Made by a program: the position numbers and the translations under genes. A DNA stretch of 64,000 nucleotides, taken from contig OY727095.1 in assembly GCA_963402885.1 (NCBI GenBank), forward strand, positions 31,625,001 to 31,689,000. The letters run 5' to 3'. Under the pieces are notes generated by a model. It did not search any database, was not told the DNA's origin, and saw only the letters and a list, made by a program, of their open reading frames with translations. Below are positions 12,601 through 42,434 of the stretch, one piece after another. How positions within the stretch are numbered: position 1 is the first letter of the stretch; every line of letters starts with the position of its first letter. Source of the stretch: Antedon bifida. Lineage: Eukaryota; Echinodermata; Crinoidea; Comatulida; Antedonidae.

Positions 12601-15600
12601 TGCTAAAAGGAAAATCACAAAAATATTTAGACTAATAAAAGGAAGATTTGAAAGGTTGTCATCATTTGTTATAAACACACAAATTACACAAACCAGTAGT
12701 GGTGTTAGTAGTCTATGAGTGCTAGCTTACCTGTATAAACCGACAATAGCCCGTGCTCTCCAGAGGGAGGGCTTAGATACGAAAGTGAAAAGTTCTTAGA
12801 ACACCCCTGTATTATAATGGACCAGTCCGCAACCACGCCCTCATGTGGGAGCGTACCAACGTACCACCGTCATCATTTTCTTTCGTAACGTGAGAGCATT
12901 ACGTCGTATGATACCAAGTGTTAGGATTGTACACTGTGCATACTATACAAAGAGTTCTATTACACTGATTACTAGTTGACTTGGCCAGGATATTAAGTGT
13001 ATTCCCACGGCCTGTTGCAGTACCAGCAGTTGATATATTGTTCATATATCGTTGATCCGTTTTAAATCGGGGTCTTCCTTAGATATAAGGAAGATTAAAA
13101 AGGAGAAAACAACACCCAGTTCATTGGATTTTAGGCCGCTGAACGGCCACGCTACCGGAAGACAAAGGAAAAGCAATTTGCATTGCCACCTGGACTGCCT
13201 CAGCTGAGGCGTGGACGCACTGTTGTGTGAAACAACAACAAAGCCGTCGTCAGGTTGTATTGTTCCTTATCTTGCTAGATTGCGTACTGTGTCCGCCGAT
13301 ATGCCTAAGTCTGAGTGTTTGCAATGCAGGGGCCAGCGTGCGACAGTCAAGTGGGACCGCCACTTGCTGTGCATTCACTGCCGCACCTGTAGTCAGGAGT
13401 CGCCGTGCGACATTTGTGTTCATTGGACGGCTTCGCGGTTTCGGACGTTGCCTCGTCCGTCGGGCCGTGCGCGGGTGGTAGACCCCGCACCCGCGGAGGT
13501 TCAGGTGGAGCCCCCGGCCCCGCTAGTAGAAGAGACCGAAGCGCCGGAAGTTTTGCCGGACGCGCCTGCAACGGCCGCTGCGCCTCCACCGCAGAGTAGT
13601 ACGCAGGACGAAGGTTTGTGCCCAGCCGTACTGGAGGCAATCGCAGCAGCGGTGCGAGCTCTACCGAGGGAGGCTGTGCCCTCGGCATCCTCGCTTAATT
13701 ATCCCCCTGTGCCAGTACTGCCTCCGCAGTACTTTCAAGGTCGAGGAAGGACGGACCCATCGCCGGATGCCGGTGGGTACGACAGTGACATGACCATGAC
13801 TTCACTGCCTAGTGAAGACCGCTCCGAGGCTGCACAGGGCGGAGACGGACTGCAGGCTCTAGTAAATCGTGTGGTTCCTGCTGTACTTTCGTACATTGGT
13901 GTAGAGTACGCTTATGACGCTCCGACGCCCGCGCCGGCTTCGAAGAGATACTCTACCTTTGGAGTGCGTGCTCCATTGAAGCGATCACGACTTGTCCAGT
14001 TGCGCCGCTGGATCCCGAACTTGTCGCTAGGGTAGAGGCTATAGCGAAGGAGCCTAAGACTCACAGCAGCCTTCTCGCTTCCGCAGGACCAATTTCTACG
14101 CTACGTATCGGCACCACCGATCCCAGATGCAGCGAAAGAACGTGCGCGCGAGGATCAAGGTCTCGACGCCAACGGCAGATTTCTGTCTCCTTCGGCCGCA
14201 ATAATCTCATCAGCGCATAATAGGGCCTCAGGAAAGTAAAATTGGTATGTTCCTTATGGAGGTATACCTCCATGGTTCATTGAAGATAATATGAATTACC
14301 TTTCTTGAATTCTGTAAGATCTGGCCTAGTACCCATCTCAGGAAGAGCTTTGTAACTGAACTGAATTTGACCTGGTGACAAACGACGTCCATCCTAAAAA
14401 GAGAAGAACAAGTTTCAACTGATGACAATCAAATAAGATGGTGAGATTGTGTTAAAGATTTAAACCAAAAATCCCCATTATGGTTGATCATTTTAAGCCC
14501 TGTCTACACTATCAAACTTTATGTGACAAAAATATGTGCCCATATACTGTATAGACATGATGATGTCATATCACTACCATATTTGGGCATATCAATACCA
14601 TATTTGGGCATATCACTACCATATTTGGGCATATCACTACCATATTTGACCATATCACTACCATATTTGGGCACATCACAGAACTAAGTTTCATAGTGTA
14701 GACAGAGCTTTAGCTCATTGAATGCAAGTTAAAATAATTATATTATATGATGATCTAATCAGTAAATCCTGTAAGCCGTTTGTATCCTTTTGCAATCTGT
14801 TTTATATTCTGGCGATCAATTTATTATTGATTTTAACAGGATTTGGACAGGAAGGGTGCAAGTGCATCCTGTCACTCCCATCTTAATGACACCAACCATG
14901 GAGGACAAATAATCCTCCATGGACCAACCATGGACCAAAACATTTAGAGGTCCATGGACCAACCAACAAAAGCTACGACATCCTATATGTTCATTTTAAA
15001 ACTTCGCTAGGTCTGTTTTTGTTTTTATATATTTAGGAAAATTGCCAAGGATGACCATAAGCAAATTCATTCACTATCCTTCTTAAAGGTGGCAATCCTG
15101 TTTACAAGACAAACATATACAAAAGATGCTACATAAACAAAGTCTTATTTTACAAGTCTTTGGGAGTGAAGTTGTATTTTGTCATTAGAAAAAAAAAATC
15201 CTGACATATGACAGGACTTGAACCCAGGAGCCTTAGATTGGTAGCCAAGCATCATAACCACCAAGCTACAACTCCACTAATTGTAATTTCAATATCTGTA
15301 CTGATCTGGATAATTACATGAAATGATCCGTATTGATATCATCAACCTATTATATTCAGTACATCAGGTATTTGAAGCTAACCAATGGAAGTTGTGTTTG
15401 ACTTTATGGACCATGGCAAACATTCTACTGCAGTTACTGCAGAATGTGTTATGTAATAACTACAACTAGTTTTGTGCAATCACTTTTTAGGGACTACATA
15501 TAGGGCCTATGTCAAATATTATACTGTAGCTACCGAATATGTTATGTAATAACTAGTTTGTTCAATCACTTTTTAGGGACTGTAAATCAATTTTTGTATA

Positions 15601-30600: not shown

Positions 30601-32805
30601 GTACTATACACTATAAACCACTAAGGTCCTGTTCATACAGTCTATTGAGACACTATTAAACTACTGTATACAGCAGGAGATCATAGTAATACTATAATGT
30701 ACTATACACTATAAAACACTAAGGTCCAGGTTCATACAGTCTATTGAGACACTACTAAACTACTGTATACAGCAAGAGATCATAGTAATACTATAATGTA
30801 CTATACACTATAAAACACTAAGGTCCTGTTCATACAGTCTATTGAGACACTACTACTGTATACAGCAGGAGATCATAGTAATACTATAATGTACTATACA
30901 CTATAAAACACTAAGGTCCTGTTCATACAGTCTATTGAGACACTATTAAACTACTGTGTACAGCAAGAGATCATAATAATACTATAATGTACTATACACT
31001 ATAAACCACTAAGGTCCTGTACATACAGTCTATTGAGACACTACTACTGTATACTACAGCAGGCGATCATAATATTAAATACTATGTACTATACACTATA
31101 AAACGCTAAGGTCCTATTCATACTGTCTATATTGAAAATAAAGTTATTTACTAAATGTACTACTTGTACTATTATGGTGCCTGGTAAACTGTAATGAACA
31201 CTAACAACAAGGGCTTGTTCACACCTATTGTACAGAGTTATGTTTTTTTTTATCTTTTGTACACAGCACACACATGTCTTTTATTTATAGCATCCCACCA
31301 CTTCCCATTGTTGACATGTGATATTCCAATAATATCACTAAACTACTGTAAACAAGACCAACTATAGTATACGCAAATCTTGTGTAGTGAAATACGTACA
31401 CTGGCAAATGGTTATAACAGACAGAAATACATCCTATTCATTCTAAAAATAGATCTGGCTGAACTAACTGATTATCCTGCTACAGTTTTACCAGGGTTAA
31501 AATAGGATGATGATACTGTAGATATACAAACTACTATAATCGTTGATAATAATACTTTTTTAAATGGTAATAACTATCGTTTTAAATACAGTAAAATACA
31601 GTCAAATCTCAAATCCTGAAAAACAATCATGGAAAAAATCCTTCCTTTTGTTTAAATCTGGATTAATCAAGTGAAAGTTTATTTCATTTACTACAGTATA
31701 TACCTTACTACTATACTGTTATTTACCTTGAATTTACCTTGAATCTTCGAGACTTAGAGAACTGTGCTCATTTGTCCCTCAAACTTTTATAGCATCCTCT
31801 TCTAACTTATACGGGCATAACTTTAAATGCATAAACAAATATAAAAAGACCTTTTTCTTACCCAAAATCAATGGCTTCCTTTGGACTTGGGCATTCACTC
31901 TGAAAAATTTCCTCTTCACTTGAAATTATAAATTCTAAAACACTGGTTGTTTCCCATGAGGCGTTTTGGTCGTACACAATGTACATAACCTCGTCTGCCT
32001 TTTTACGTAGAACTTCAAACTCTTTTGTGTCTTTTGCGTAGTTTACAAGAGTACTGTCTTTGGAACATGTGACTTTAATATTTAACGCTTTCCTTTTACC
32101 CGGTGCTGGATCGTTCGCACATATATCTACGGTAAGCTTAAAAAGACAAGTTTGATGTCCAAGACAAAACATTATCGGATCACAACCAGTTCTGGTTAAC
32201 AAACTTTTCTGAAGTCCATCAATGTTTTTTAGCAACTCTGAATTTGAATCTATACTTTTACCAGATGTATGTCGTAGGAATGTTATATATGATTTATCTT
32301 CTTTTAGGCCAAATTGAAGCTTGTCTTTAAGAGTTAATATGTCTGATAAACTTGGCCCAAGCCCTAGTGGCTTAACAGGAGAGCTTCCTGTGCCAAAATT
32401 ATATGAAAGTTTTGATATATAACTTCCTCTAGGACAAGTAAAATGTACTCTATTGTTTTCAGTCCACCTATATGAAACATCAAATTCTTCGCGATACATA
32501 ACTTTCTCATACTGAACTTTGGGTTGTTTCGGAGGTGCATGTCCTTGTGGTTTTTTATGTCCTTTTGCACCAGCGCCCATTTGCTCTCCATTTCCCATTG
32601 GAGGCATCACTTTCCGAACATCTCCTTTTGCATTTGGCATCATTCCCCCAAGATCCCTTCGAGGTTGCATTCTGGCATTTGGGTTTGCCCGTTTATTAAG
32701 AAAACGGTTATAATTTTCATGTGGATATGATCCGACAGCAGAAATGGTTAGAAGTACTACTACCGTCCTTAGGCAAGAAGCCCAGATTTTAAATACATAA
32801 ACCAT
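595..32805 (-). CDS. Uncharacterised secreted cysteine-containing protein, 5' five exons (3' end outside window)
   Basis: Exons, in transcript order: 32805-31862, 19814-19740, 16807-16702, 14393-14300, 674-595. Reading phases match at all four joins, giving 433 codons with no stop, and every border is GT-AG. The protein opens with a signal peptide (hydrophobic run VVVLLTISAVG near residues 15-25). A disordered stretch rich in Met, Gly, Pro and Lys follows (about 35-100). From about residue 105 there is a conserved-looking region with FTCPRG, GCDPIMFCLGHQTC and VTCSKD. Exons 2-5 add SGWCKAS, PECRAELKDAYCAFHMNG with an NGT glycosylation sequon, GGCIPPAF, and HTCPEC at the current end. I do not recognise the family. 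FTCPRG recalls dermatopontin-like folds only faintly. An extracellular or matrix role is inferred from the signal peptide and cysteines. The join across the 13.6-kb intron 4 is the weakest, since a missed symmetric exon could lie there. Confidence 0.72.
1872..2070. mobile_element. Foldback element / MITE
   Basis: Inverted ends ATTATTTCATTTTTCCCCTT, with TTAAGCTTGGTTC and TAGAGAC in both arms. A partial related sequence (ACGCAAAGCAAGGACGTAA) lies at about 1787. Confidence 0.75.
2732..3175. mobile_element. Foldback element with long arms carrying CRE-like sites
   Basis: Arms of about 155 bp (2740-2899 and 3015-3171) are inverted copies separated by about 115 bp. Both end in AAAGGACAACT and share AACGTATTAGGGATGTACAT. 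Each arm carries CTGTGACGTCACAGGTGCAT. Confidence 0.85.
3325..3612 (+). repeat. Tandem repeat, 36-39-bp unit
   Basis: About seven units of GATGATTTMATGAGAATAAA followed by TGTGATGATTATGACAT. Confidence 0.9.
4021..4172. mobile_element. Near-palindromic foldback element
   Basis: Arms of about 65 bp: AATGTTTATATTCGTGGAAT versus the complement of ATTCCACAACTATAAACATT. Almost no loop. Confidence 0.75.
5287..5474. mobile_element. Small element with CAGGGAA inverted ends
   Basis: Ends CAGGGAATAATTTC and GAAATTTTTCCCTG. CAGGG starts are seen in some hAT elements, but no 8-bp target duplication is evident. Confidence 0.45.
6210..6992 (+). repeat. Minisatellite, about 29-bp unit
   Basis: About 25-27 units of AGACAGAGATCAGACATAAA then ATAGCCTCAC. 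A block of five to six units is itself repeated with a 160-bp period (6411 and 6571). Confidence 0.93.
7320..7455 (+). repeat. Interspersed repeat 3' end (TTTTGCTTATTTTGTATCTCC family)
   Basis: GCTTATTTTGTATCTCCATT, then ACCCACAGCATTGTCATTTT, recurs with decay at 16210-16330 and 39580-39660 on the plus strand and at about 60500-60550 on the minus strand. Confidence 0.55.
7535..7625 (-). repeat. tRNA-derived SINE head (type C)
   Basis: On the minus strand GGTTTAGGACATCTGCATAT and GGGTTTGAATCTC resemble tRNA A and B boxes at the right spacing. The body is unlike types A and B. Confidence 0.4.
8044..8265 (+). mobile_element. 5'-truncated LINE, C-terminus of reverse-transcriptase ORF
   Basis: The frame ending at the TGA at 8186-8188 reads STFTSAASRIWNDLPASIRS then FKSALKTHLFLSN, the typical last residues of CR1/L2-like ORF2 proteins. 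A short 3' UTR and a TTAT-rich tail follow. Confidence 0.75.
9230..9356 (+). repeat. Probable LINE 3' tail
   Basis: Ends GAATAAATAAATGAAATGAAGTGAAATGAA, i.e. repeated GAAAT units after a short 3' UTR-like segment. Confidence 0.4.
11567..11733. mobile_element. Inverted-repeat element M3, truncated copy
   Basis: Opposite orientation to the 50983 copy; shares GGAGATCAAAGGGTTT, CCAGACATAAGATCAAA and TTGTTAGATTGCCTTGG. Left terminus missing. Confidence 0.65.
12696..14236 (+). mobile_element. Decayed DIRS-type retroelement fragment (terminal region plus gag-like ORF)
   Basis: A GC-rich island in AT-rich surroundings. Its left part (12696-12780) matches the foldback element at 19092-19391 (TTACCTG, AACCGACA, TCTATGAGTG), as expected for a terminal repeat. 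An open frame at 13211-14035 follows, and coding potential continues to about 14236 in other frames. No reverse transcriptase or recombinase is present, so this is a 3'-truncated copy. It lies antisense in intron 4 of the secreted-protein gene, ending about 60 bp from exon 4. Confidence 0.5.
13211..14236 (+). pseudogene. Gag-like ORF of the retroelement, frameshifted
   Basis: The first frame gives 274 residues with a cysteine/histidine cluster near residues 36-65: CLQC, DRHLLCIHCRTC, PCDIC. A proline/alanine-rich linker follows. Near 13990-14035 the frame is lost, while a second frame reads LDPELVARVEAIAKEP and a third reads DQFLRYVSAPPIPDAAKERA to a stop at 14236, so at least two frame changes are needed. 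The zinc-knuckle-like start and this C-terminal pattern resemble the first ORF of DIRS-like elements, a family-level guess. Overlapping open frames in the same GC-rich stretch are shadows. Confidence 0.5.
14300..14393 (-). CDS. Exon 4 of the uncharacterised secreted protein gene
   Basis: A 94-nt exon, acceptor TAG and donor GTAAT, encoding DGRRLSPGQIQFSYKALPEM and on to LTEFKK. It ends in phase 1. A retroelement fragment of opposite orientation ends about 60 bp further on. Confidence 0.75.
14494..14712. mobile_element. MITE family M1, copy 2, expanded centre
   Basis: Both inverted ends are intact. The centre holds about five successive 21-bp units of the form ACCATATTTGGGCATATCACT, making this the longest copy. 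Confidence 0.9.
15015..15278 (-). repeat. tRNA-derived SINE (type A), reverse copy
   Basis: On the minus strand the tRNA-like head TAGCTTGGTGGTTATGATGC and B box GGGTTCAAGTCC are followed by the same body as the 35168 copy. It lies in intron 3 of the secreted-protein gene. Confidence 0.75.
15436..15592 (+). repeat. Tandem duplication, about 85-bp spacing
   Basis: GTTATGTAATAACTA and CAATCACTTTTTAGGGACT occur twice in the same order. Confidence 0.7.
15730..15878. mobile_element. MITE family M1, copy 3
   Basis: Ends AAGCTCTGTCTACACTATCA and AGTGTAGACAGAGCTTA. Two 21-bp units. Confidence 0.9.
16205..16330 (+). repeat. Interspersed repeat, diverged copy of the same family
   Basis: Shares TTTATTTGTATCTTCATTTAG and ATACCCACAGCATTGTCATT. 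Confidence 0.45.
16702..16807 (-). CDS. Exon 3 of the uncharacterised secreted protein gene
   Basis: A 106-nt exon with a TTACAG acceptor and a GTAAGT donor. It carries three cysteines in PECRAELKDAYC and GGCIPPAF plus the HMNGTGG glycosylation sequon. Confidence 0.78.
19092..19391. mobile_element. Foldback element related to the 12.7-kb retroelement terminus
   Basis: Left arm (about 19120-19198) and right arm (19286-19390) are inverted copies sharing CTTCAAGGGGAGAACA, CCGACATAGGCC and GATGAACC. The middle holds GAGCCACGCCCTCAGGTGGG, echoing CAACCACGCCCTCATGTGGG at 12833. Confidence 0.6.
19554..19613. mobile_element. MITE family M1, copy 4, minimal
   Basis: Only 60 bp: the two 23-bp inverted ends plus about 14 bp. 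The centre is deleted. Confidence 0.9.
19740..19814 (-). CDS. Exon 2 of the uncharacterised secreted protein gene
   Basis: A 75-nt exon with a TCTAG acceptor and a GTGAGT donor. It encodes YSGWCKAS through NDVWDIIG and is in phase with exons 1 and 3. Confidence 0.75.
20620..20785. mobile_element. MITE family M1, copy 5
   Basis: Both ends present, the right one slightly decayed (GACAGTACTT). Confidence 0.88.
24151..24270. mobile_element. MITE family M1, copy 6
   Basis: Left end intact; the right end lacks GACA (GTGTAGAGCTTA). Shortened centre. Confidence 0.87.
25769..25876. mobile_element. MITE family M1, copy 7
   Basis: Ends AAAGCTCTGTCTATACTATC and GATAGTGAAGACAGAGCTTT. Confidence 0.87.
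26690..26945 (+). mobile_element. 5'-truncated LINE, C-terminus of reverse-transcriptase ORF
   Basis: The frame reads RRFRSIKANKARFTNSFFPG then SIRALN, a common LINE ORF2 ending (Arg-rich, NSFFP, IRxLN). The 3' UTR ends in repeats of TGACT. Confidence 0.7.
26969..27268. mobile_element. MITE family M2, copy 1
   Basis: Inverted ends TTAAAGATATATTGTCC and GGGGGACAATACATCTTTAA. About 300 bp, non-coding. Confidence 0.8.
27590..27812 (+). repeat. Probable LINE 3' UTR and tail
   Basis: A non-coding stretch ending AAAATAAATCAAATAAAAT, a (AAATC)-like tail typical of LINE insertions. Confidence 0.4.
28770..29460 (+). repeat. Complex tandem repeat
   Basis: Three decayed copies of a segment containing GTATTTCAATTGATTAATTATCG and CCAAAACTTTCAATTTC at about 28818, 28970 and 29200, followed by three copies of ACAGTATGTTTTTGTCATCA. 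Confidence 0.75.
30505..31130 (+). repeat. Tandem repeat, about 95-98-bp unit
   Basis: Six to seven copies containing AGGTCCTGTTCATACAGTCT and ATAATGTACTATACACTATA. Confidence 0.9.
31862..32805 (-). CDS. Exon 1 of the uncharacterised secreted protein gene
   Basis: A 944-nt coding exon giving 314 codons plus two bases (GG), ending at a strong donor (GG|GTAAGA). Read past the donor, the frame stops at once, as expected for intron. The start is the first Met, and the next 25 residues form a signal peptide. Exon 2 supplies the A that completes the Gly codon. The long open frame in AT-rich surroundings, together with matching downstream phases, makes this exon secure even though its family is unknown. 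Confidence 0.85.
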
Positions 32806-33872
32806 AGTTAAAATAGCACAAAGCAGCCTAAAAAAGAAGCGGATGTATGTGTGTTGATCACCCTGTCACACAAACACACTTGAAGTTCATTTGAAGCAGC
32901 CTACTCGGCTCAGCAGCAGAGTTGATCGAAGCCGCCGCGCTGTTTGTCAACAAACCATACGAAGAGATCGCGGAAATAAATCAGCTGAATAAAGATTAAA
33001 CGTTTAAAAATTATAATACTGTTAGGTGTTACACAACATACAAACCATGGTGGAAGAAAACTCCTCAAAACAATCCAAGATCTACGTCAGCTACAACATT
33101 CCGAACGATAGGTGTCAAACATCCTACTAATAAACTTTACCGTACCATCACTGAGCGAGTAACACACTCGAATGGTTTCGCGATTACTGATTTGATAGAT
33201 ACGCCCTCTTAAGCTTCTAAAAAAAGGTGGATCGACCTGGGAGAAGATCAGAGAAGAATCAATTCAAATTGTAAAGAAATTGTAATCTGTAATGTAATAT
33301 AATTAATAAATTATTTATAAATGTTAAATATCTCCTAAGGCATACTGAAACTTGTGTTGTAATGCTGTTTTTCTTATACTAAACCTACCTAGCATGCCGT
33401 TTTTTTCTCTCTGCTGTAATAGAGGGCGTTTTTAAAACATTGAGGGCGTCAACAAGAAACAAAAAACTCATTCATGTTTTGTTGAAGAAAGTCACTTTTC
33501 AGGTTGAAAAAAATTACTAAAATATAATAAATTACTGTATTGTAATTATAAACTCTCATCTTAGTCCATTTGTTTTAACATTTATGAAATTGATATTATT
33601 TTTTTAGGCCTAGGCTAGGCCTAGGACTACCGTACGCATTGTTAGGATAGGCTGGCTGGGCTTCTCCAAACCCCAGACGAGCCTTTTTTTAACTCCATCC
33701 ATTATTGGCTAGGCTTAGGCCTAATTGTAAGGTTGATCACATGCTTTAGCTTAGGAGGATGGAGGGACCGGCTAAAAAATTGTATTTGTTCATCTAAAAT
33801 TTTATTCATTAAAAAAAAGTATTGATTGGTTGATTAATTAAATTTTTTTTTTTCATCATATTTTATTTTTAG
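32806..33872. promoter_or_regulatory. Divergent promoter region and 5' UTRs
   Basis: The secreted-protein gene is read leftward from 32805 and the acetyltransferase coding exon begins after an acceptor at 33871-33872, so both promoters and at least one 5' UTR exon must lie here. No convincing TATA box was found. An AGGCCTAG-rich patch lies at about 33606-33627, similar to one in the other divergent promoter region. The exact transcription starts are not visible. Confidence 0.5.
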
Positions 33873-35690: not shown

Positions 35691-36632
35691 TGCCACACGT
35701 CCTGCCGGCAGTAATTTACATAGACGAAATTCAAAATACCACGTTACACTGTTGGTATCACAAAGAAAATAATTATGACGGAGTACAAAAGAAACAATAC
35801 ATTAAATTAAATTACGATATATTGGAAAAATACAATAATTAGGCATATACTACATTTTGATTAACTTCAACGCATAATTAACATTCTTTTTTCTTTCAGT
35901 TTTTAATTCCGCACCCAAAACAATCGAGAAGAATGCATTGCGTGCGGAGGATTTTTAAGTAGGATCTTCGTAAACGGATTGATCTAGACATACCGGTACC
36001 ACATTGGTCATTTTAAAATTTAAGATGTGATATTCCTACGCTAACCTCAAACTTTTTTATGAACATAGGTGTCTGTAAAGTGTCCCAATAGGCAATGGTA
36101 CGATTAGTGTGTGATGTTCATACAATTGTATACATCATTAGTTGTGTGTTTACCACATAAAACCTACTGTTAAAAAAACGCAATTATCATAAAACAACGA
36201 AACATGTTAATATATAAAGTGCATTTTGATGTGTACAGAATAAATATACAAATTGAAGACCCATCATAGCCTACTATTTAGCATCATGTTGAGGAATTAC
36301 ATAAACGAGGTTTGACGGTGATGATGGTGCTGTCCTATATAAATGATTACCAATACTGAATGTAAAGATGTTCGCACTCCCGGTGGTATGGCCGGATCAA
36401 AATCGTGAAAATTAATGCAGTGTTCAAGAAAAGATCACATTTCGGATTCCATAACTTTCATGTGAACGCTCGAAAAAACGTAATGTAACCTGGAGTTTTC
36501 GTCGGAGTTCGACTCAGTGTGAATGAGGTTTAGATAGACTGCCAGATGTTCTAAGATATGGATAAAAGAAAAATAAGGGGTAGTAGTATGCCATGTCTTA
36601 ATGATAGTGTCTATTGCTAATAGCTACCGTTG

Positions 36633-36773
36633 TAAAGCTCTGTCTACACTATCAAACTAACGGAATAGTGTCATGTGCCCAAATATGGTACAGTGATATG
36701 ACGTCATCGTGTCAATATATGAGCACATCGCATTTTTTTGTCACATAAAGTTTGGTAGTGTAGACAAGGCTTA
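36633..36773. mobile_element. MITE family M1, copy 8
   Basis: Intergenic copy, about 300 bp upstream of the TATA box of the secreted-peptide gene. Confidence 0.88.
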
Positions 36774-37078: not shown

Positions 37079-37086
37079 TATAAAAG
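37079..37086 (+). promoter_or_regulatory. TATA box of the small secreted-peptide gene
   Basis: TATAAAAG lies about 30 bp before a short segment that ends in a good donor (TTTG|GTAAGT at 37159/37160). That segment would be a 5' UTR exon of roughly 37110-37159, and the first coding exon follows after a 449-bp intron. Confidence 0.5.
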
Positions 37087-37109
37087 CTGTATTTGAAATG
37101 GACTTTATT

Positions 37110-37159
37110 TTACAATACGACTTTAATTCTGCGGCAGCAACAGTAGTACATCTTATTTG
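37110..37159 (+). other. Probable 5' UTR exon of the small secreted-peptide gene
   Basis: It lies just after the TATA box and ends at a GTAAGT donor. Its start is only estimated from TATA spacing. Confidence 0.4.
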
Positions 37160-37613
37160 GTAAGTTAACGGAACATTGGAAAATACTTTTTATTTTTAGA
37201 GAGTTAGTGACTCATACATCTCTTTATAAAATTCGGACATTAGGCCTTTTTTTTTTAGAGTTGGCGAACTTTGTATTATAAGTTTTACTATCTCACGTGG
37301 AGTAACATGTATCGGTAATTGACGCTTAGCATTCCTTAAGATGGTCCATATCTGGACCCTATAATTTAGGATGATGGTTTTGGCCACGATTGTATGAAAG
37401 CGTATTTTCTTTCATTTTTTACAAACGAAACACAACATTTAATGTGAATCTCAGAGGCCAGTGCACTTGGAAAAGGAAATAATTAGGCATGGCTTATGTG
37501 CGCAATGCATTTATCATTTGCTGTAGTGTAACTATCTATATTGTATTGATGTGTAATTGTAGCCTATTTTGTATACCGTATTGCTTCATATCTTCTTTTT
37601 TTCTTTAGCAATT

Positions 37614-40600
37614 ATGAATAAGGCACTTGCTCTATTGTTTACGATGTGTTTGCTAAATGCATTCATACTAACGAATTCTGCTTCTGAAGGTGAAGGTATG
37701 TATGCCACATAAAGCAACTAAATACTTGTATTTGTAAGTTATTGTATCTTGTACATTAAAATTTCCAATTTGACCCGGTAGTTGTGTACCAAGTAGGCCT
37801 AGACATTACCAAACTTTAGATGTAGTTCTATAAGAGGTACCTGTAAATTTCTGGGTACAAAATTCGGAAATTAGGAGGCGACAAAATGAACAAATAAGCC
37901 TAATATTTTTAAAAATGACATTATTGGTAACTAACGTTTTAAATACAACAATGCTTGATATTTATAATAATGTAGACACTAATTTATTCTTGAGCTATGG
38001 AGAATTAATTTTTTCCGAAATAAAAGATGAATGAATGAATGAATGATACTATATCACACAAAAGCTGTGCGGACAATGTTCATAAAGTTTGAACAAAACT
38101 GATAATCGAATTTAAATTCGGACGAAGAAACATAGTTCTTCTTTACACTAGCGAACAATGTTCGATACAATATACCACAAAAGTTGCGCGCAAACAATTT
38201 TCTCATAAAGCTTGAACAAAACTGATAATCGAATCGAAATTCTGACAAAGAAACAAAGTATCTTTACACACTAGCGAACATTTCGTTCTCATTTTGTTGT
38301 TATCAGCATTGCATCATTAATTCATGTACTTCTATATAATCTTCACACATCAATCACACATCTAGTTAGTTGTACTTTTAATAGTTGTTGTTTGATGTAC
38401 AAAAAGACAATGATGGTTGTAATGACAACGAATCCATTAACTTTGGTAAAAATACTCTTAAGAGAAGATGATGAAACTTTCTCCTCAAACATATGGCGAC
38501 ATAGCTCTCTAAACCGGAGACAACATTTTTTCTTCATGTGTGAACTCGACCTATTATCTGAGGAGTCTGAAAGTAACAGTCACATTGTTCGGCGTAGTTA
38601 AATCTCCCTATTATATGATTTTGCTTGACATTACGAGAAAATTATTTTCCTTTTCTAAAGCTCTGTCTACACTATCAAACTAGTTTGACAAGTGTGTTGT
38701 GCCCAAATATGGTATTGATGTGCCCAAATATGCAGGTATATCATCATCATCATGTCCTATGGGCATATCACATTTTGTTGTCACATAAAGTTTGATAGTG
38801 TAGACAGAGCTTTAGACCTTAAGCTAAAATTATGAGCGTCTTCCTTATTTGCATAGAACATTGCTATTTACGTTTATTTTGTAAATAGATTATGTCTTAA
38901 TATGTAGGCCTAAGTAATTAAATGTGTACATTCAGTGATTTATTCGACAATTTGCCGACAATCTTATAAATCGACGCCAATATATATTTATAGTGAATAA
39001 AGTATTTTAAACTCAATCTAAATCAAACTATAGTATTATTTTTTTCACCATGGTTAATAAAATGTTATTCATTTTGTTGCAACAAGGAAACACGGACGGA
39101 TCATGTAAGTTAAACTTATATTATTGTATTTGTTTTTATATTGTATTGTATTTTTGTTTTATTTAGACAGAATTAGTGATTAAATTGTATAGATACAGTG
39201 TGATAACTAGTACAGAATATCATCAGATTAGATGATTTAATCATTGAAATCCGTTCTGCAGGATAAAATATCGGCCACATAAAACTAAGTCTCACTCGAA
39301 TTCAAAGTGTTCTTAATGTATAAGTCAGAGTGGGGCAAACATCTGACCAATTACTAAAATCCCTGACGCAAAGGAGAACTAATTCTATATTGTTTGATAT
39401 ACCATGGAGGTATTTTTCCATGGATTTACGCATTAGACACTTTCCATTGACTAGTACGACGATATGACACGACAATGATAACGTCACTCTTAATTAATAC
39501 CATCACTTATTCGATTTCTCTAATTAACAAATGTTATGTTTGCATATTTACAATTGAAGTATATTTACTTTATCGTTTTTATTTAGCTTTTTGCTTATTT
39601 TATTTTGTATCTCCATTGAGATTCAGCCAGCATTGTCATTTTCAGTAATTTTACTTTGGAAGATAGGAACAATAATATATTCGATTCATATAGTACATTT
39701 TCAGATATTTTACAAAATGGAAACATATTTATTTATCATTATTGTACCAGAGTTTAGATCGCTTTGTTTTAAGTCAATGGTTTTGCTTAAGTCAAAGTTG
39801 AGTTAATTACGTTTTCAAATTCTATTCAATATAGGATAAAAAAATGGTTTGATAAATCTTTTTTTTATACTTAACTTGACTTAAGCAAAAATATTAAAAA
39901 ATTACAGCACAGGGAAGATGAATGAGAGCACAATATTATCTTTTCTATTTTTTTATAGTAATTACACATTGTTAAAGATGTATTGTCCCTTTGACTAATT
40001 CCAAAAAAATAAAAAATAACAGATTTCGAAAAAAGGTGGGTCATTTTGAAGTATCATAATAGTTATTAACTATCACCAAAAATTTGTCGAAAAAAAAATC
40101 ATTTAACTGAAATACAGACGTTTTTTTTGTTAAAAAAATAACTCTGACTTCCAGTCAAAGTTTTCGATCAAAACATACCCCATAGTGAAACGCGCTTGTT
40201 TGGCTACTCTGTATGCATAATCATAAAACTTCCTCACGATCTGTGTGAAAATACCTTCTCAACCATGACGAGTTGTAAACAATCCTAATTAGCATATGCA
40301 TAATGCGTACTCGTGGTTTGAAATCTTTGTTTACTTTTGCTCGCGACGATTTTCCAGACGAAATGTAATCAAACTAATTTACCTGTTAATTACGTAAACT
40401 TGTTGTTTTTGGCTCGAATTTTCGACTTAAAGTGAATAACTTTAATATTACTTTGATATGGCCAATTTAAATTTAGAAAATTTTGACCTTCATTTTTTTG
40501 TGTTTCAAGGGACAATACATCTTTAATATATTCATATTTTGCACTTTTAAAATGTTAACACTAATTAATTATACCATAATTAAGAAAAAATATAAACAAA

Positions 40601-42083
40601 ATTACAGCACAGGGATGGTGAATGAGAGCACAATATTATCTTATCTATTTTTTTATAGTAATAACACATTGTCAATATATTGATATTTTTCATATTTTTT
40701 ATAACATAAATAGAGATTTATTAATCAATAGATTACTTTCGTCTATTTATCTTTTATATTTTAATAAAAACACCCGATTATAACCTAAAATAGCACCCTA
40801 TGTTCACAAGCATGCTAAGTTAAAAGCACAGGCACATTTTGAAATGTCTTGCTTAAAACAAATAAAAATATTAAAACTTATCTTTGTATATCTCGTTTTA
40901 ATCAGCTGGCCCAGAAGAAGATAGTAAGTATTGTAAAAGTGTGAATATAGAATAATGGGTCTAGCCTAAAAATGTGGAGAGTTTGAAGGGTGGAGGGGGT
41001 ATGTTGGTGATCATCATCGTTTTGGACATTGGGGACTGGTCCTGGTTGCTTTCTGTTGATTTTTCCTGTTCCGTGTCCCGCTTGTCTTTGTCCCTTCGTT
41101 TTGTGTCCCAGGCAGACCCGACTCAAGATCCTGTATCTTTCTGGGATACTGCCTTCTTCCTTTCCCCCAGATTTATTGTTTTTTGTCTATGTTATTTCTT
41201 ATTTATTCAATTATTGTTTAAAAGTGAATTAAATTGAATTGAAAAAGTAGTCTAGTATTATGTGCTGCTATAATCATAATGTATACAATCTAAGAATTTG
41301 TCTGTTAATAGATATTTAGAGATATTAGATATATCTATAATTTAAAATGTTAAACATAATTTCTTAAATACTTGTTTTCAAAAAAGAGGGAGATCATAAA
41401 ATAATTATATTTTAATTCTAAAGCTCTGTTTACACTATTAAACTAGTTTGACAAAAAAAGTGTGATGTTCTCAAATTTGGTAGTGATATTACATCACCAT
41501 GTCTATATATGGGCACATCACATTTTGTTGTCACATAAAATTTGATAGTGTAGTTAGACAGATAAGAAATTACAATTGTTGAATTAGTTTCTGTTCAATT
41601 TAGACATTGGATCGGATTCATGGATGTACTCGTTTGGGTCTGATGGTGATGGAGGTGGACAGTTACTTAAACGAACATGTAAGTAAATGTAGAGCAACAT
41701 GGAGAGGAAAAACAACAGAAAAACAAATGTTATTGTAAACTGAATTTTTTTTTTACGGTGTCGCGGATGCAAACTTTAGACGAACACAAGGTTTTATTGA
41801 TAGACTTGTTACTTAAAAGATGAATTATGACATTCTTAATATTATGTATAAGCCTTGTCTCGGCAAAATGATAATATCACTACTGTAACGAGTGTTACAC
41901 TACTATGCATAATTTACTATGTGGCTATCAGTAATTTGGTATTTTATATATTTGTATAAGTAATTTGACACATTTCAATTAACTTAACTTACTTAAATAC
42001 AATTCTTAATCTTCAATAAGTTAATATTCAACCATAAATCATATTTTGCAGTAGAAGAACTGGATGGTGATGTTGTTATGTAA
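37614..42083 (+). CDS. Predicted 74-residue secreted peptide precursor with two microexons
   Basis: Coding parts: 37614-37695, 39087-39104, 40906-40923, 41604-41678, 42052-42083. All joins are phase 1 and all introns GT-AG, four of the five donors being GTAAGT or GTAAGG. The protein starts with MNKALALLFTMCLLNAFIL, a clear signal peptide probably cut near NSAS/EGEG. The rest is acidic and glycine-rich: two 18-nt exons encode GNTDGS and SGPEED, and the fourth exon encodes NIGSDSWMYSFGSDGDGGGQ ending LLKR. The Lys-Arg pair is a possible convertase site, leaving a tail TLEELDGDVVM. There is no cysteine and no C-terminal Gly for amidation next to the dibasic site. I do not recognise the family; neuropeptide-like precursor or small acidic secreted protein are the options. 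No database search was possible. Confidence 0.62.
38048..38283 (+). repeat. Tandem duplication, about 117-bp unit
   Basis: Two copies sharing GAACAAAACTGATAATCGAAT and CACTAGCGAACA, in the secreted-peptide gene intron before the first microexon. Confidence 0.75.
38656..38814. mobile_element. MITE family M1, copy 9
   Basis: Well-preserved ends, in the secreted-peptide gene intron before the first microexon. Confidence 0.9.
39580..39660 (+). repeat. Interspersed repeat, second copy of the TTTTGCTTATTTTGTATCTCC family
   Basis: TAGCTTTTTGCTTATTTTAT and GCATTGTCATTTTCAGTAAT match the 7320 copy. Confidence 0.55.
39902..39971 (+). repeat. Direct repeat flanking MITE M2 copy 2, left copy
   Basis: TTACAGCACAGGG through TATTATCTTTTCTATTTTT; about 72 bp repeated with few changes at 40603-40675. 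Confidence 0.75.
39972..40526. mobile_element. MITE family M2, copy 2, long version
   Basis: Inverted ends TTAAAGATGTATTGTCCC and GGGACAATACATCTTTAA. About 555 bp, in the secreted-peptide gene intron between the microexons. Confidence 0.82.
40603..40675 (+). repeat. Direct repeat flanking MITE M2 copy 2, right copy
   Basis: TTACAGCACAGGGATGGTGA and onward matches the left copy; the gap to the MITE end is about 75 bp. Confidence 0.75.
40975..41248 (+). repeat. Probable LINE 3' UTR and tail
   Basis: C/T-rich segment with higher GC than its surroundings, ending GAATTAAATTGAATTGAAAA. It lies in intron 4 of the secreted-peptide gene; open frames within it look fortuitous. Confidence 0.45.
41420..41562. 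mobile_element. MITE family M1, copy 10
   Basis: Right end decayed (GTGTAGTTAGACAG). It ends about 40 bp before the acceptor of the exon at 41604. Confidence 0.85.
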
Positions 42084-42297
42084 ACAAAAGGTAAGGAATA
42101 TTTATAAAAACACTTATCCAATACTTTGTCTTTGCCGGTCTCCTCCAAATAAAGTATGATGGCATCCTAACCAAAAAAAGACAAAACAAACATGTTTAGG
42201 AATATTTGTTTTGTGATTTACCGATGTTTAAATTATACAAGTGTTAAAAACATACAAAGTATTATATTGACTTGTTATTAATAATTTATCTCAACAG

Positions 42298-42434
42298 AAT
42301 GGAGACGTCAGCATGGCTATCAACTCCTCCCAGAAGATTTTGTTATGATGTTGTTTGAATGTCATAAGGGAAGAGAATTAAACATAACAATGCAAAACAT
42401 GTATCACTTTAACAATAAAAATAAAAAACTGTAC
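42298..42434 (+). other. 3' UTR exon and poly(A) signal of the small secreted-peptide gene
   Basis: The stop codon at 42081 is followed after 7 nt by a donor (AAAAG|GTAAGG at 42090). An acceptor CAACAG at 42297 opens this exon, and AATAAA at 42414-42419 is the likely poly(A) signal. Confidence 0.5.

Follow-up and report, generated by a model that had tools for sequence, protein, structure and literature searches.

Neuropeptide precursors are recognized by an N-terminal signal peptide and by one or more peptides bounded by dibasic sites, with an amidation glycine that is frequent but optional, and further by neuronal or endocrine expression and detection of the peptide, as set out in the available text of PMC9793003. 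Schistosome micro-exon genes (MEGs), as described in the available parts of PMC10526429, have 10–20 very short exons, none longer than 81 nt, that make up most of the coding region; they encode a signal peptide and family motifs, and have short introns at both ends and the longest ones in the middle of the gene; a MEG motif located directly past the signal peptide contains hydrophobic and aromatic residues with a basic residue at the end. According to the accessible portion of PMC4350168, MEGs are apparently confined to platyhelminths. Exons that depend on eMIC are characterized by weak 3' splice sites with a UGC nearby and, in flies, by weak 5' splice sites as well (PMC8797185, in the part available).

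We analyzed a 64,000-nt stretch of Antedon bifida DNA (contig OY727095.1, positions 31,625,001 to 31,689,000; hereafter the window) and found a locus that is probably a real Antedon gene, predicted to encode a 74-residue secreted propeptide that would be variable through frame-safe internal exons and for which a neuropeptide-like role is the first guess. The best reading of the sequence is a lineage-restricted secreted propeptide, maybe neuropeptide-like, and the locus appears to be a credible, previously unlisted crinoid gene that is ordinary in kind, with a mildly unusual layout. We re-read the DNA between positions 36500 and 43000 and rebuilt the transcript, in which all six introns are GT-AG (Table 1). 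The exon borders, the phase 1 joins, the Lys-Arg site, the stop, and the 3' UTR exon agree with those described in an earlier annotation made from the letters alone (hereafter the sequence-only reading). The TATA box reported there is present as the TATA-like element TATAAAAG, whose density across the 264-kb neighborhood is 0.07 per kb of strand, against 1.1 for the looser TATAWAWR. However, position 37079, from which that reading let the gene begin, belongs to the element itself, so that the transcript, as judged from the sequence, probably starts ~30 nt downstream. An ATG at 37098 (+), just past the element, would open an upstream frame that runs to 37621 and overlaps the main ATG if transcribed; a TATA-set start near 37109 would exclude this frame.

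Table 1. Predicted features of the Antedon bifida gene, with positions in the window. Acceptor and donor columns give how many of the 82 training sites of that type the site at least equals.
Feature	Position	Strand	Acceptor	Donor	Remarks
TATA-like element	37079..37086	+			TATAAAAG
5' UTR exon	37109..37159	+		43	start probably ~30 nt past the TATA-like element; donor GTAAGT, score 5.81
First coding exon	37609..37695	+	69	70	ATG at 37614; signal-like peptide MNKALALLFTMCLLNAFILTNSASEGEG, last codon split; chosen unguided by the gene finder
Microexon 1 (18 nt, phase 1-1)	39087..39104	+	2	69	encodes (G)NTDGS(S)
Microexon 2 (18 nt, phase 1-1)	40906..40923	+	7	17	encodes (S)GPEED(N)
75-nt exon (phase 1-1)	41604..41678	+	7	69	encodes IGSDSWMYSFGSDGDGGGQLLKRT; content 7.16 nats; picked unguided by the gene finder
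Last coding exon	42052..42090	+	17	70	rest of the TLEELDGDVVM tail; TAA 42081-42083; picked unguided up to the stop
3' UTR exon	42298..42434	+	18		acceptor score 5.43; AATAAA at 42414; 3' end approximate

The coding pieces measure 82 (counted from 37614), 18, 18, 75, and 32 nt, and the coding introns are all in phase 1. Intron lengths are 449, 1391, 1801, 680, 373, and 207 nt, and the GC content of the exons (0.36–0.53) contrasts with that of the coding introns (0.29). The TAA stop lies 7 nt before the donor of the last junction (42090) and nonsense-mediated decay usually follows a 50–55 nt rule; the predicted transcript would therefore avoid decay.

The spliced product, MNKALALLFTMCLLNAFILTNSASEGEGNTDGSSGPEEDNIGSDSWMYSFGSDGDGGGQLLKRTLEELDGDVVM, starts with K3 and a hydrophobic stretch and carries a signal-like leader whose hydropathy and −3/−1 residues conform to a crude rule (not SignalP) that was devised after this leader had been seen. 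Starts that conform to this rule, as that of the first coding exon does, occur in 23 of 2,054 control ATG-ORFs of at least 27 codons, a rarity that is flattering because the rule was written with the leader known. Past the leader, the product is acidic and cysteine-free, as the sequence-only reading had it: the net charge is −11 past residue 22, Asp, Gly, Ser, and Glu abound, and the sole Cys (C12) is located within the leader. The single dibasic site, Lys-Arg at residues 62–63, is followed by an 11-residue tail, and a peptide is thus bounded by the end of the signal peptide and Lys62-Arg63. No glycine for amidation precedes the Lys-Arg, the peptide ending GGGQLL-KR, and no repeated unit is present in the 74 residues. 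The frame of the five-exon chain is undamaged and, because all borders are in phase 1, each of the eight include/skip combinations of the three internal exons remains open to the same stop.

These features suggest a simple scheme, in which the signal peptide would be cut near residues 22–24 and direct the product to the secretory pathway, where an enzyme of the prohormone-convertase type may cleave it at Lys62-Arg63. The cleavage products would be an acidic, cysteine-free peptide of ~38 residues, SEGEG...SDSWMYSFGSDGDGGGQLL, and the 11-residue tail TLEELDGDVVM. Alternative splicing of the 18-, 18-, and 75-nt exons could lengthen or shorten the product by six, twelve, or more residues. The function would be that of a peptide signal, with a neuropeptide-like one as the first guess; the neuropeptide reading is weak because the product lacks an amidation glycine and has a single dibasic site. 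Of the earlier proposal of a neuropeptide-like or small secreted factor, the part that best describes the locus is thus the secreted-peptide gene with microexons, whereas the neuropeptide part is held back by these two features. The further suggestion that the segment was tuned by exon gain finds no support, the two microexons being dissimilar by eye.

Whole-genome searches (assembly of 315.6 Mb in 27 contigs) with the 74-residue product listed only its own signal exon and 75-nt exon and no second copy, the shorter exons being too small for detection in such a search. The 5' part of the gene matched only itself in the genome, and the matches of the 3' part elsewhere (45 of the 46 listed) were confined to its first 71 bases, a MITE. 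The window is rich in a MITE-like repeat that is short and palindromic (for example, 36642-36765, 38665-38805, and 41428-41555); its ends, GTCTACACTATCAAACT, gave 35 matches with at most three mismatches against 0.23 expected. One copy precedes the TATA element by 0.3 kb, and two others are located in the introns of the gene. A degenerate DNA pattern for DSWMYSFG recovered the gene itself and two sites with one mismatch, read as DSWMYWLG (G000:C8:5334194 and G000:C13:9549963), which are nearly identical to each other. We further compared the product with protein families: no match over the cut-off was found in Pfam, no match in NCBIfam (bacterial and archaeal library), and no match to the peptide strings within the published paper texts searched. 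A sub-threshold similarity to the YxzE bacteriocin family (PF25184; 19.5 bits against a cut-off of 40) and weak matches among PDB sequences to NEQ131 (best E 0.022) and TRIM71 were taken as chance. The earlier statement that the peptide belongs to no known family thus stands for Pfam, NCBIfam, PDB sequences, and the searched paper texts, in which there is no convincing relative; 'orphan' is used here with the same scope, extended by the species' own genome. WMYSFG is slightly like WMDFG, the end of CCK (sulfakinin/cholecystokinin-type). Unlike CCK, however, it has no amidated end because its glycine is followed by Ser rather than by a basic site.

Exon prediction was performed with a home-made splice-aware gene finder that combines codon usage with donor and acceptor weights, was trained on a fixed set without this gene, makes no use of the signal-peptide property, and allows a stop codon in frame where two exons join. 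Of its three settings, the loosest returned four of the five coding exons with identical borders (37609-37695, 40906-40923, 41604-41678, and 42052 to the stop), omitted 39087-39104, and fused the gene to an upstream acetyltransferase. The two stricter settings, with heavier exon penalties, retained just two exons, the signal exon and the 75-nt one, which was extended to a stop at 41686. The same run over the 264-kb neighborhood predicted a 20-exon alpha-catenin, whose first 700 residues align to residues 5–700 of the solved alpha-1 catenin with few small gaps, and an 18-exon alpha-mannosidase, a piece of which aligns with jack bean alpha-mannosidase with many gaps. Because both genes were recovered, we consider that the finder works on this genome. 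It was retrained once on six high-scoring predicted genes with 82 introns, of which only the catenin and the mannosidase are homology-checked. With the retrained finder, the top score for the region is 12.26, reached by a chain from which 39087-39104 is again missing and which takes in two pieces upstream, with an in-frame junction stop. The five-exon chain scores 8.95, rising to 9.94 without microexon 1 and standing at 9.66 without both microexons, so that microexon 1 lowers the chain score by 0.99 and microexon 2 raises it by 0.28.

Could chance alone produce such a chain? Markov simulations under three models, 400 each, gave maxima of 3.29, 6.42, and 6.57, and none of the 1,200 reached the chain score. 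However, when real sequence was reversed and cut into 93 half-overlapping windows, 4 of these scored higher (13.0, 13.7, 15.1, and 15.1), all of them as two-exon calls; they represent three places, namely, the catenin exons, a GC-rich ORF at 13.1–13.6 kb (two windows), and 68.7–70.9 kb, where the high score is unexplained. Together with the lack of a convincing relative in the searched collections, the reversed windows speak for the view that the locus is not a gene but AT-rich DNA in which splice-like signals line up by chance or a pseudogene has decayed; we regard this as quite improbable, given the outcome of the simulations, the rare signal-like start, the raised GC of the exons, and the intact frame. 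A narrower role for chance, with the signal, 75-nt, and final exons real and one or both microexons coincidental, appears unlikely. It is favored by the chain scores, to which microexon 1 is a cost and microexon 2 only a small gain, and by the acceptor of microexon 1, which is matched in weakness by only 2 of the 82 training acceptors. Rather weak acceptors are also found at 40906 and at 41604, with 7 of the 82 being as low or lower. Against coincidence stand the ranks of the two microexons among all candidates in the 3.9-kb intron that contains them (phase 1, open, a multiple of three, 6–60 nt, acceptor score at least −2, and donor score at least 2), where 40906-40923 comes first (12.27) and 39087-39104 second (11.00), and the third-ranked candidate (10.23) shares its acceptor with the first. 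The expected number of equal candidates per simulated intron is 0.048 at the level of microexon 2 and 0.138 at that of microexon 1, the latter figure being high enough to leave room for coincidence; two or more candidates at the level of microexon 1 occurred in 1% of 500 simulated introns. Stretches presumed to be non-coding (62,700 strand-bases, with 1,600 positions counted twice) contained no candidate at the level of microexon 2 and a single one at the level of microexon 1; neither level was reached on the opposite strand of the 3.9-kb intron. The AG-free zones upstream likewise argue against coincidence, extending over 72 nt for microexon 2, a length reached by 2.8% of all AGs, and over 51 nt for microexon 1 (7.1%). 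Taken together, the evidence favors both microexons being real, microexon 2 more so than microexon 1, and exon 39087-39104 is the weakest piece of the gene model.

In its layout, the gene is reminiscent of the schistosome MEGs. Going by the available parts of the MEG literature, the two have in common a signal peptide (a predicted one in the crinoid), tiny symmetric exons, the longest introns in the middle of the gene, and frame-safe skipping; the internal exons of 18, 18, and 75 nt are all in phase 1-1, that is, symmetric in the MEG manner. By analogy, the crinoid gene may work like a MEG although it is not a member, because it has just two microexons and, past the leader, where the sequence is SEGEGNTDGS, lacks the MEG motif as described in the available parts of PMC10526429. 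A full MEG-like reading would make the product a secreted, disordered peptide of a gland or epithelium, with small symmetric exons that are skipped, no dedicated receptor, and an incidental Lys-Arg. The short exons, the long middle introns, and the signal peptide, as in the accessible text of PMC10526429, and the eight in-frame skip products are consistent with it, but schistosome MEGs have 10–20 short exons with motifs and, in the part of PMC4350168 available, appear restricted to platyhelminths, whereas we found five coding exons, two of them micro, in a deuterostome, no gene family, and no paralog in its own genome; this reading is distinctly unlikely. Another view replaces the signal with an acidic extracellular-matrix or calcium-binding peptide, in which DGDGGGQLL would represent about half of an EF-hand loop. 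The Asp/Gly/Ser/Glu-rich composition, the net charge of −11, and the loop-like D-G-D-G-G-G-Q-L spacing seen by eye point that way. EF-hand loops, however, have Glu at position 12, where the peptide has Thr, repeats are absent, and no EF-hand profile appears among the Pfam matches listed to E = 10 (HMMER filters drop most matches above 0.1), and we consider a matrix or calcium-binding peptide very improbable.

The preferred reading, a secreted propeptide, can be set beside the crinoid precursors PCNP2-PCNP20, which, in the available text of PMC9793003, are likewise small and secreted, carry a basic site for cleavage, and lack identified relatives. They are mostly amidated, however, whereas the Antedon bifida peptide lacks a glycine before Lys-Arg (amidation as stated in the same partial text). 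None of PCNP2-20 fits the product, a comparison based on the text descriptions given in the accessible part of PMC9793003. No paper that joins a microexon with a neuropeptide precursor was found in the literature searched, and a search for echinoderm secreted microexon genes returned nothing related.

The splice sites themselves add a regulatory aspect. Microexon 1 is preceded by a UGC that begins 9 nt before it; microexon 2 has none. Neural microexons of the eMIC type measure at most 27 nt and have a long AG-free zone; for microexon 1, the corresponding values are 18 nt and 51 nt. With its weak acceptor, strong donor, and upstream UGC, microexon 1 looks like a regulated exon, and its weak 3' splice site and the nearby UGC resemble the eMIC/Srrm234 exons described in the available part of PMC8797185. 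By the same partial account, eMIC exons of Drosophila have weak 5' splice sites, in contrast to the strong one of microexon 1, and microexon 2 departs from the pattern in lacking the UGC. The link to eMIC is a hint only because a UGC is found near 12% of all AGs and near 3 of the 82 training acceptors. The genome yielded a marginal SRRM_C match (27.7 bits against a cut-off of 27; E 0.0012; positions 11-58 of 67), and a control bacterium also gave a match, below the cut-off. The translation of the genome match contains SPIRKRRDSPSFLDARRITRYR, which resembles the eMIC core. It would be a long shot, drawn by analogy, to suppose that 18-nt neural microexons of the eMIC type vary a mature peptide signal in what would be an independently evolved crinoid counterpart of the MEG design. 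If the microexons are regulated, a peptide precursor would be edited in six-residue steps through splicing. Small secreted-peptide genes with microexons are easily missed by automatic annotation, and orphan crinoid precursors bear on the evolution of peptide signaling because crinoids are the sister group of the other living echinoderms.

Additionally, two other ORFs in the window are of note, neither of which has a Pfam match. The first, a 335-aa stop-to-stop ORF at 31858-32865 (−), appears by eye to be secreted, its first part being basic and rich in Pro and Gly and its second containing Cys. The other, at 13208-14035 (+), is gag-like by eye and is located in the GC-richest stretch of the window (45% vs about 31%).

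We also searched the genome for four Antedon mediterranea peptides taken from the available text of PMC9793003. For two of these, no match was listed, and the other two, GLFPTGGMDPLGASYFT(G) and GHPKSNFILMP(G), are present exactly, including the amidation glycine, which points to a crinoid very close to that species. The mitochondrial COX1 stretch contains 0 stops under both the invertebrate and the echinoderm/flatworm codes and 4 under the vertebrate code, a pattern consistent with an echinoderm, although no proof of one. A 444-aa stop-to-stop ORF (L011 1333-2664; G000:C7:36554027-36555358) holds 16 amidatable repeats; the AmedPCNP4 peptide, unaltered, forms the first of these, and 9 of the 16 are AFPGSGGMDTLGNGYFTGKR. 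These repeats show features of the pedal peptide/orcokinin type as given in the accessible part of PMC9793003. The same partial text reports that no precursor of this type was found in A. mediterranea and describes PCNP4 with a single peptide. Judging from the repeats, PCNP4 may be a truncated piece of a pedal peptide/orcokinin-type precursor.
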